Source: an uncultured Pelagibacteraceae bacterium (lineage in GTDB: Bacteria > Pseudomonadota > Alphaproteobacteria > Pelagibacterales > Pelagibacteraceae). Taken from it: a stretch of DNA of 64,000 bases. Below, piece after piece: positions 16,991 through 20,243 of the stretch (position 1 is its first letter; each line of letters opens with the position of its first letter). The notes under the pieces are model-generated. The model had not been told where the DNA came from and ran no database searches. It saw only the letters and a list, made by a program, of their open reading frames with translations. A program made the translations under genes and the position numbers. Location of the stretch: positions 1-64,000 of the forward strand of contig CACPOD010000002.1 in NCBI GenBank assembly GCA_902635515.1. Direction: 5' to 3'.

Positions 16991-17313
16991 CATATATCGT
17001 TAACGACAATTGTATTAAGTGTAAGCTAACAGACTGTGTTGATGTTTGCCCAGTTGATTGCTTTTACGAAGGTAAAAATATGCTTGTAATTAAACCCGAT
17101 GAGTGTATAGATTGTGGCGTTTGCGAGCCAGAATGTCCTGTCGATGCCATAAAAGCAGACACCGAACCTGGAAGTGAAAAATGGTTAGAAATCAATAAAA
17201 AATATTCTGAAATCTGGCCTAACATAAGTGAAAAAAAAGATCCACCAGCGGATCACGAGAAATTTAAAAATGAGCAAAATAAGTACGAAAAATATTTTAA
17301 AGAAAATCTTTAA
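16987..17313 (+). CDS. fdxA: Ferredoxin FdxA-type (7Fe)
   Basis: [29 protein letters not shown]...[16 protein letters not shown], typical FdxA cysteine spacing. Confidence 0.95.
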
Positions 17314-18157
17314 AAGCAAAACAGACAAAAAAGTGAAAAAAAAAGTTTCTAAAAAGAAAGTTGTAAAAACTAAAAAAGCTAAAAAAGCTAAAAAAATAAT
17401 TTCAAAAAAAACCAAAAAAGTTGTTAAAAAAGTTACACCTAAATTAACTAAAACAAAAAAAGCTGTTAAAATTACAGAAACGACAGCTGAACCTAAAGTA
17501 GATAATTTAAGAATTTCAAAAACAAATGAGGTTAAGCCTGAAATAAAAAAAGTTAAAAAACAAGAAACTGAAAAAAGAGAATACAAAATTAAAGATCATG
17601 TTGTTTATCCAAAGCATGGGGTAGGGCAAATTACTGAATTTAAAAAGATCAATATTGGTGGAATTGATGTTGAAACGTATGTTATTAAATTTGAAAAAGA
17701 TAAAGCTAACGGAATGGTCCCTGTAAACAAGCAGTCTCACTTGAGGCCGTTAGCAACTATTAATCAAGTTAACAAGTGTATTTCAATTTTAAAAAGTAAA
17801 CCAAAAATTAAAAGATCAATGTGGAGTCGAAGAGCACAAGAATATGAAGCAAAAATATCTTCTGGAAAAATATATGAATTAGCTGAGGTTGTCAGAGATC
17901 TAAACAAGGGTGATGACCTTATGGTTGACCAGTCTTATAGTGAGAGACAATTATTTGAAAAAGCTTATGAAAGAATTTTGTCTGAATTTCAGATTGTTTT
18001 GAATGTATCATTAGAAGATACTCAAAAAAAATTGGATAAAGCACTAAAAAGAAACTTAGGTGGGCAGCCTCAACCAGCAGCACCTGCAAAAACGCCAACT
18101 AGTGAACTACCTGTAGACGAGCCAATTTCTGATAACGACGAACCAATTGACGAGTAA
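17270..18157 (+). CDS. carD: CarD-family transcriptional regulator with Lys-rich N-terminal extension
   Basis: CarD/CdnL domain [48 protein letters not shown]; likely start [12 protein letters not shown] at 17270 (track gives 17228). About 90 aa Lys/Val/Ala-rich N-terminal tail. Confidence 0.9.
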
Positions 18158-18165
18158 AAAAAAAC

Positions 18166-18203
18166 GCCTCTCACACACTACTGTAATGAGAAGCGTTTTT
18201 TGT
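18166..18203. terminator. Bidirectional intrinsic terminator between convergent carD and small basic peptide gene
   Basis: aaaaaacgcCTCTCAcacactactgtaaTGAGaagcgttttttt: stem with one mismatch, A-tract on one side and T-tract on the other. Confidence 0.75.
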
Positions 18204-18219
18204 AAAGAATACTAAGTTA

Positions 18220-18312
18220 CTATTTTCTTCTTCTTTTTTTTGCTTTTTTCTTAGCTTTTTTCTTAGCTTTTTTCTTAGTTTTCTTTGCCGCTTTTTTTCT
18301 TTTCTTAGGCAT
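18220..18312 (-). CDS. 30-aa extremely basic Lys/Ala peptide, histone-H1/Hc1-tail-like
   Basis: ATG 18312 to TAG 18220: MPKKRKKAAKKTKKKAKKKAKKKAKKRRRK; upstream GGGAG SD 6-7 nt before ATG (AAAAAAGGGAGCTAAAGATG). Absent from the supplied ORF track because of its length. Confidence 0.8.
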   Translation of the reverse strand: MPKKRKKAAKKTKKKAKKKAKKKAKKRRRK

Positions 18313-18336
18313 CTTTAGCTCCCTTTTTTAGTTAAA

Positions 18337-18393
18337 CGAATCAAATTGATTCGCTGTTAACATATTTTTATTTTTTTCTATAAGTTATGTCAA
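18337..18393 (-). promoter_or_regulatory. Candidate promoter with palindrome for the small basic peptide gene
   Basis: Minus strand TTGACA (18393-18388), 17-nt spacer, TAAAAA (18370-18365); then inverted repeat CGAATCA-N3-TGATTCG (18337-18353) between promoter and SD. Confidence 0.45.
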
Positions 18394-18512
18394 TTCTTTA
18401 ATTAAAAGTTAAATTTTATAAAAATTTTTTTAAACTTTTTATTTTTATAAAACTTTTTTTTATTAATTTAGTTAATGTTTATGCGGTTAATAAACAACTT
18501 AAATTAAATATT

Positions 18513-20243
18513 TTAATAAAGGTTTTCTAGCTGATTTCTATATTTTTCTGCAACTTTTTTTCTTTTTACTTTCATAGTTGGTGTCATTAAACCATTTTCA
18601 ATAGAAAAATTTTCATCTATTAATTGAATTTTTTTTATCTTTTCTAATAAAGTTAATTTTTTATTTATTTTTTCAATTACTTTATTTATTTTTTCTTTTT
18701 CATTTAAAAAATCTTTATTAGGAACAATTAAAGCAACTAAGTAATTTTTTTTGTCACCATAAACCATACATTGATCAATCTCTGGTTCATTCGTAATCAT
18801 ATTTTCAATTTTAGCAGGTGAAATGTTATCTCCGCCAGCACTTACTATGATATCTTTTTTTCTATCAGTAATTTTTAAATAACCATCATTTGGATCTATC
18901 TCTCCAATATCACCTGTATGTAACCATCCATTTATAATTACTTTTTCAGTTTCTTCTTTTTTGTTCCAATATCCTAGCATTACATTTTCGCCTTTAACTA
19001 AAATCTCTCCATCTTCAGCAATTTTAACTTCATTTCCTTTAAATGGAGGTCCTACAGTTTCCACTTTAATTTTATGTATTGGATTGCAACTTACTACTGG
19101 TGATGTTTCTGTTAAGCCGTATCCCTGAAGTGTCGGTAATCCTATAGCATTTAAAAATTCACCTATTTCTTTATCTAAAGCACCACCACCTGAAACGAAG
19201 GCTTTCAAATTCCCACCGAACTGTTTTTTAATTTTTTTTCTAACTAATCTATCAACTACAAAATTAAGTAATTTTTCAGAAAAAGTCATTTTTTGATTTA
19301 ATAGTTTTTTTCTTCCCAAACGAATTGTTGCATCAATTAATTTTGCTTTTAAACCTGTCTGTTTTTTTAAATTCATGTTTATTTTATTGTAAAGGTTTTG
19401 GTAGAACCTAGGGACAGCTGCCATAATTGTAGGCTTTGCTTCAGATATATTTTCTAGAAGTTTTTCAATTTTTTCAGCATAGAATACTCTAGCTCCTACT
19501 GCTATCTGCACGAATTGAAGACAGTGCTCATAAGAGTGTGAAAGAGGAAGCCAAGTTAAAAATACTGGTCTTGAATTAAATAATGGTTTTGTAATTTCAC
19601 ACGATCCCACAACATTATTCAAAATTCCACCATGACTTAAGATTACTCCCTTAGGATTACCGCCAGTACCAGAAGTATAAATAATACATGCAGGAGAATT
19701 TCTTTTTAATTTGTTATTTTCAATTTTATCTGCTGTTAATAAATTATTTTCTATAATTGAATTAAAATCTAAATATTTTTCTTTATTAATTATATTTAAA
19801 TTATTTGTTACCTTAGCTATTTCATCTAAAGTTATGACTTTTTTAATAAAATCTTTTTCATTAATTATATTGTTTAATTTTCGTAGCATTTCATTATTTG
19901 AAACTATAACTAAGTTAGGTTCACAATCTTCTATCAAATATTTATAATCATCTTCTATATAAGTTGTATATGCTGGAACTGTAATTCCACCAGCTAACAT
20001 TATAGCTAAATCAGAAACAAACCACTCAGGTCTATTTTCCGAAACTAAAAGACATCTATCGCCTTCTTTTATATTTTCTTTAATAACTTTTGATAATTTT
20101 AATATATTCTTTTCAGTTTGTTCCCATGTGTATGTTTTTTTATTGTTTGGATTTAGCCATTCTAAAAAAATATCTTTTTTATTTTGTTTATTTGCTTGAT
20201 TAACAAATAATTCGATCAAATTATTTAAATTATTTAAATTCAT
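18513..20243 (-). CDS. AMP-dependent long-chain fatty acid--CoA ligase
   Basis: 576 aa; IIYTSGTGGNPKGVILSHGGILNN, GYGLTETSPVVSCNP, GWLHTGDIGEID...ITDRKKDIIVSAGGDNISPAKIE. Confidence 0.93.
   Translation of the reverse strand: MNLNNLNNLIELFVNQANKQNKKDIFLEWLNPNNKKTYTWEQTEKNILKLSKVIKENIKEGDRCLLVSENRPEWFVSDLAIMLAGGITVPAYTTYIEDDYKYLIEDCEPNLVIVSNNEMLRKLNNIINEKDFIKKVITLDEIAKVTNNLNIINKEKYLDFNSIIENNLLTADKIENNKLKRNSPACIIYTSGTGGNPKGVILSHGGILNNVVGSCEITKPLFNSRPVFLTWLPLSHSYEHCLQFVQIAVGARVFYAEKIEKLLENISEAKPTIMAAVPRFYQNLYNKINMNLKKQTGLKAKLIDATIRLGRKKLLNQKMTFSEKLLNFVVDRLVRKKIKKQFGGNLKAFVSGGGALDKEIGEFLNAIGLPTLQGYGLTETSPVVSCNPIHKIKVETVGPPFKGNEVKIAEDGEILVKGENVMLGYWNKKEETEKVIINGWLHTGDIGEIDPNDGYLKITDRKKDIIVSAGGDNISPAKIENMITNEPEIDQCMVYGDKKNYLVALIVPNKDFLNEKEKINKVIEKINKKLTLLEKIKKIQLIDENFSIENGLMTPTMKVKRKKVAEKYRNQLENLY

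Follow-up and report, generated by a model that had tools for sequence, protein, structure and literature searches.

A 30-residue, strongly basic micro-protein encoded next to carD in SAR11 bacteria is probably controlled at its start codon by a small RNA encoded elsewhere in the genome. From comparative sequence analysis, we propose, with a probability of about 0.72, that the trans-encoded small RNA RF01814 represses translation of a small histone H1-like, nucleic acid–binding protein. The DNA analyzed (the window) is a 64,000-nucleotide stretch from an uncultured Pelagibacteraceae bacterium, and it holds the target of RF01814, not the RNA itself. The features of the window that concern the micro-protein gene are as follows.

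17264–18157, plus strand: carD, with a lysine-rich N-terminal extension of ~110 residues (Pfam CarD_TRCF_RID and CarD_C); the constant syntenic neighbor
18160–18201, no strand assigned: bidirectional terminator hairpin common to carD and the micro-ORF, seen in the alignment and folding as a long stem
18220–18312, minus strand: micro-protein ORF of 30 amino acids, 73% Lys plus Arg, stop codon included (ORF list, orthologs, and coding test)
18318–18323, minus strand: Shine-Dalgarno region GGGAGC, of which GGGAG is invariant in all genus orthologs
18335–18355, minus strand: 5′-UTR hairpin around CGAATC-N5-GATTCG (two GANTC sites), in 85 of 87 distinct upstream sequences and by folding
18364–18370, minus strand: −10-like region TAAAAAT (promoter check and alignment)
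18388–18393, minus strand: −35 box TTGACA, in 87 of 87 distinct upstream sequences
18471–18486, minus strand: distal conserved block CCGCATAAACATTAAC, between the ligase stop codon and the promoter (alignment)

Read from the minus strand (18312 to 18220), the micro-ORF encodes MPKKRKKAAKKTKKKAKKKAKKKAKKRRRK, with 18 Lys, 4 Arg, and 5 Ala among its 30 residues and without a hydrophobic stretch; the initial annotation had placed it there with the same composition. It had also described a GGGAG Shine-Dalgarno sequence at proper spacing, which we located 6 nt 5′ of the ATG, an upstream TTGACA, which was found at 18393–18388 with 10 of 12 promoter letters, and a 355-bp gap, which agrees with the distance measured from the carD stop at 18157 to the acyl-CoA ligase stop at 18513. 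The terminator claimed to serve both carD and the ORF is present as judged by folding and alignment; a simple terminator scan returned none.

We searched for CarD in 60 relatives and obtained 29 further same-genus loci, of which 27 carry the micro-ORF, the other two (L023 and L032) ending near a contig edge. Among the named Pelagibacteraceae loci of the genome collection, 60 of 61 have it, and the exception stops within carD. Taken together, the micro-ORF is present at all 87 other same-genus loci that have sequence 3′ of carD (88 with the window). After later loci were added, the set comprised 108 target rows, with some genomes reached twice, and held 57 distinct micro-ORF DNA sequences and 36 peptides, with no frameshift. 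The placement is constant: single-copy, syntenic, and convergent with carD. The SAR11 (Pelagibacteraceae) consensus is M[AP]KRRKKA..KKKAKKRRRR, with lengths of 21–35 amino acids that change in-frame only. The initial annotation had named conservation of the ATG, Shine-Dalgarno sequence, and stop codon in relatives as the test of its claim of a conserved, translated micro-protein; all three are kept without frameshifts, and the claim is strongly supported by this. In 88 close DNA pairs, we counted 132 synonymous versus 57 nonsynonymous codon differences, where 18% would be expected to be synonymous, giving a dN/dS-like ratio of 0.10, and the nonsynonymous differences are for the most part between Lys and Arg or between Ala and Pro. 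At a genome GC content of ~28%, runs of AAA and AAG open easily, and the micro-ORF might on that account be an A-rich frame that is open by chance and has no product. Against this stand the conserved start, Shine-Dalgarno sequence, and stop, the synonymous bias, the strictly in-frame length changes, and the observation that no comparable ORF arises by chance: at a threshold of at least 60% Lys/Arg, the micro-ORF is the only such ORF in the 64-kb window, as is its ortholog over 400 kb of a complete relative. A chance frame has thus already been refuted by the comparative data, and we assign it a negligible probability. We conclude that, by sequence comparison, the micro-ORF is confirmed as a real gene; it is absent from the annotation and from family libraries.

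The sequences around the ORF are also conserved. The ribosome site is GGGAGCTAAA(G/A), and TTGACA, the 5′-UTR hairpin, and the shared terminator are likewise kept. In L115, one of the two exceptions to the hairpin, the stem is held by a G·U pair, which is easier to reconcile with a hairpin formed by RNA than with a site that acts only as DNA. The predicted micro-ORF mRNA folds better than shuffled sequences (z = −4.6), and its ribosome site is open in the centroid structure. Because the hairpin region contains two GANTC sites and SAR11 has a CcrM homolog (PMC3973325), methylation control of the promoter region is possible. The distal block between the ligase stop and the promoter, GCGCATAAACATTAAC, is conserved as well.

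The entry point to a second locus was the invariant GGGAGCTAAAG-ATG-GCTAA of the micro-ORF. An Rfam scan of the window region gave a sub-threshold match to RF01814 (27 bits; cut-off, 55) on the strand opposite the micro-ORF start. RF01814 itself is found above the cut-off in 28 of 37 same-genus genomes, on a different contig from the micro-ORF or, in the genome G012, ~260 kb away from it. The part common to RF01814 and the micro-ORF start is CUUAGCCAUCUUUAGCUCCC, the reverse complement of GGGAGCTAAAGATGGCTAAG. When aligned, RF01814 is a hairpin, GATAGTCCT / AGGACTATC, with the antisense sequence in its loop; the loop reads UUAGCCAUCUUUAGCUCCC and is complementary to the part of the micro-ORF mRNA that holds the Shine-Dalgarno sequence and the ATG. 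The pattern GGGAGNTAAARATG is present in 142 of 151 genus genomes (reversed-pattern control, near zero); the 22 genomes that are at least 90% complete have two copies in 16 cases, three in 2, and one in 4. Where the sequences were read, one copy was at the micro-ORF start and the other in the RF01814 loop; any additional copies apparently lie within other genes. A search for the RF01814 locus in the window's own assembly, which is 83% complete, did not find it; the nearest relative, G022, has a peptide identical to that of the window (L008) and an RF01814 RNA (L169).

The segment of the window to which the loop is complementary is the following.

18304–18323, minus strand: antisense target GGGAGCUAAAGAUG plus CUAAG, complementary to the RF01814 loop with one C·C mismatch at 18309

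In G012, the duplex between the loop and the micro-ORF start has a predicted energy of −36.9 kcal/mol; the 521 start regions of a complete relative have a mean of −8.6 kcal/mol (S.D. 3.6), and the next best reaches −24.3 kcal/mol. The window's own micro-ORF start gives −35.4 kcal/mol, the best of 93 window starts. In genomes whose peptide begins MP- as opposed to MA-, the window among them, the duplex contains one internal mismatch. We noted that GGGAGCTAAAAATG, with the same G-to-A change, occurs at both unlinked loci in G286, G252, G366, G369, and G370, of which G252 and G366 are possibly one genome. Because the A variants form two separate clades in a tree of CarD and acyl-CoA ligase, this double change happened at least twice. 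For a further A-type target (G281), the hairpin partner was sought in its assembly and not found. A C-to-U change in one target (L105/G368) is still paired, as G·U, and one hairpin (L236, G378) has a mismatch close to the end of the match. The A/G change is tolerable through G·U pairing in one direction, and the co-variation amounts to two independent events. As is typical of a trans-encoded antisense RNA, RF01814 occupies a separate locus, and its complementarity over the ribosome-binding site is kept by co-variation. We conclude that pairing of the RF01814 loop with the micro-ORF start is well supported by these comparisons.

The direction in which RF01814 is transcribed can be judged from its stem. 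In 47 stems, all nine non-Watson-Crick cells are G·U on the Rfam strand and A·C or C·A on the other; in the 19 distinct hairpins, 100% of stem cells are paired, and two pairs have changed on both sides, the stem changes representing only a handful of independent events. Further, a promoter-like block, TAATGCA..TGnTATAwT, lies 5′ of the hairpin on the Rfam strand at a near-constant distance from the stem. Together, the wobbles and this block fit the Rfam (antisense) strand as the putative RNA. A run of U follows the stem in only 10 of 47 loci, and the 3′ end of the RNA is therefore poorly defined in most genomes. RNAs that mimic ribosome-binding sites, like CsrB, are known, and on the strand opposite to the Rfam one both loci carry the identical sense sequence; an RNA from that strand could accordingly imitate the ribosome site and titrate a common binding protein. 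We consider this highly improbable, because the stem would then carry the nine mismatches that the Rfam strand lacks, the identity runs up to 19 nt, codons included, and is longer than expected of a protein site, and in the aligned RF01814 loci we noticed no block of conservation upstream on that strand. That the opposite strand of RF01814 encodes a second micro-ORF was also considered and rejected: the frame is unconserved and stops after 3–28 codons, in many genomes after 3.

The rhtB element (RF01814) was reported in 2009 as a candidate RNA with no target assigned, among the less well supported ones (PMC2704228), and our literature search found no report of any RF01814 target. RF01814 might be a cis-acting leader of rhtB that the micro-ORF mRNA opens in trans, or the two mRNAs might regulate each other. 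In 34 of 47 loci, the rhtB start codon follows the end of the hairpin by 4–14 nt, and the stem holds AGGA 12–15 nt 5′ of that start. RhtB's annotation as a LysE-type translocator (PMC2704228) is also suggestive in view of the high lysine content of the micro-ORF product. The remaining 13 loci, without a close rhtB, have proC, an OmpW-like gene, or opposite-strand genes downstream, and there the hairpin, loop, and promoter-like block remain, which makes a cis leader improbable in our view. Because the downstream genes vary, RF01814 is not tied to rhtB. The divergent genes upstream encode a conserved small protein and a glutaredoxin-like protein, and the surroundings as a whole fit a free-standing RNA gene, as far as gene order can indicate. 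The gene 3′ of RF01814 has been exchanged several times (rhtB, proC, OmpW-like, and others; L158–L185, L167, L192, L209, and L213), making the downstream side a small insertion hot spot adjoining a conserved RNA.

Orthologs outside the genus bear on what the peptide may do. G152, from another genus of Pelagibacteraceae, encodes MAKRRKKAKKATKKKAKKATKKKGKKKKATKRRKKR (36 amino acids) at the equivalent position, and a sister family of the order has, in equivalent position and orientation, MEELKVIFAKARKKAKKKAAPKKK.. proteins of 40–91 amino acids with AAPKKK repeats. Inspection of the CarD loci in 19 named alphaproteobacteria turned up no lysine-rich ORF, and among 17 other genomes of the class only genus g5 had one. 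The KKKA and AAPKKK repeats resemble the H1-like lysine-alanine tails of Hc1, Hc2, and AlgP, the genus form having no acidic residues; unlike those tails, no ortholog has a Pfam or NCBIfam match above cut-off, whether the peptide or the longer orthologs were searched and with the Hc1 and Hc2 profiles included. No report of the peptide was found in a literature search. From its composition and the H1-like repeats of the sister family, we infer that the peptide binds nucleic acid; a role like that of an H1 tail is plausible, the more so because the sister-family orthologs are longer and have AAPKKK repeats. The peptide could instead be a small ribosomal or ribosome-associated protein and not a nucleoid protein. 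The ribosomal proteins bTHX, bL37, and eL41 are similar in size (~25 residues) and are very rich in Lys and Arg, as is the micro-peptide, which is single-copy, occurs in every genome checked, and has a strong conserved leader. Its length and repeat number, however, vary freely (21–35 amino acids in the genus and 40–91 in the sister family), which is unusual for a fixed ribosome site, and a PDB sequence search with the peptide gave no match at E up to 10, a weak test with a low-complexity query. We therefore regard a ribosomal role as unlikely, if still worth considering, and favor the H1-like nucleic acid binder.

In the mechanism we propose, the ORF would give rise to a polycationic micro-protein, most likely a minimal histone H1-like nucleic acid binder, from its own mRNA of roughly 200 nt, in a unit consisting of the promoter, the 5′ hairpin, an open ribosome site, the ORF, and the terminator. 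The second locus would produce RF01814, a small hairpin RNA whose loop would pair with 18–20 nt of this mRNA that include both the Shine-Dalgarno sequence and the AUG. With both covered, the ribosome would be kept off and translation repressed, and RF01814 would therefore set the timing and amount of the basic peptide. We infer that both RNAs are expressed together, that their pairing represses translation, and that the peptide binds DNA or RNA. A type I toxin-antitoxin pair, in which a toxic cationic peptide is restrained by antisense RNA, would likewise combine a small peptide with an RNA antisense to its ribosome site and start, and overexpression of HctA is lethal in E. coli (PMC3469542). 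The peptide is not hydrophobic, as a membrane-active toxin would be; it is always single-copy and syntenic throughout the genus, and the sister family has the protein but no detectable matching RNA. We give a toxin-antitoxin system very little credence.

The closest functional precedent for RF01814 as a translational repressor is HctA (Hc1) and IhtA of Chlamydia, in which loop 1 of IhtA occludes the hctA start codon (PMC4355289). In both cases, a small RNA encoded in trans uses, or would use, its loop to cover the translation start of a small, very basic H1-like protein (PMC4355289, PMC3469542). In contrast to the chlamydial pair, to which no sequence relation was found, the SAR11 peptide has only 21–36 amino acids and no counterpart of the N-terminal domain of Hc1, RF01814 forms a single hairpin whose match of 18–20 nt includes the Shine-Dalgarno sequence (IhtA has three stem-loops and a 7-nt core), and the SAR11 host is free-living. 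The resemblance would thus be one of working principle only, and it suggests that H1-like proteins came under small RNA control at the start codon in lineages other than Chlamydia as well. The rhtB RNA of Rfam is the proposed regulator itself; its target and antisense mechanism are new here, and its link to rhtB is inconstant. A likely target and mechanism are in this way offered for an RNA family described without one, and a micro-protein is added that family libraries lack. Post-transcriptional control is thought to be important in SAR11, one of the most abundant bacterial groups of the ocean, because its transcription regulators are few. We lean, with less assurance than for the repression itself, toward a genus-wide SAR11 switch in which RF01814 controls a polycationic peptide that adjusts the state of the nucleoid or the ribosome, and the rhtB link may couple this to amino acid export.

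A matching RNA was also sought in the sister family, where most genomes contain a single perfect copy of the leader GGGGAGATAATTATG and a second copy does not recur consistently; a weak RF01814 match in G054 was set aside as apparently lying within a coding region, and a second copy in genus g5 turned out to be an unrelated gene start. No matching RNA was detectable in the sister family or g5, both of which have the protein, so the protein probably predates its control by RNA.

Pelagibacterales CarD proteins, encoded by the neighboring gene, have an N-terminal extension of ~90–130 residues that is 40–45% Lys/Arg (17264–17590 in the window), where most other alphaproteobacterial CarD proteins that we read have only 11–15 residues, although a small number of them also bear basic extensions. 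In the genus, CarD also has an acidic C-terminal tail.
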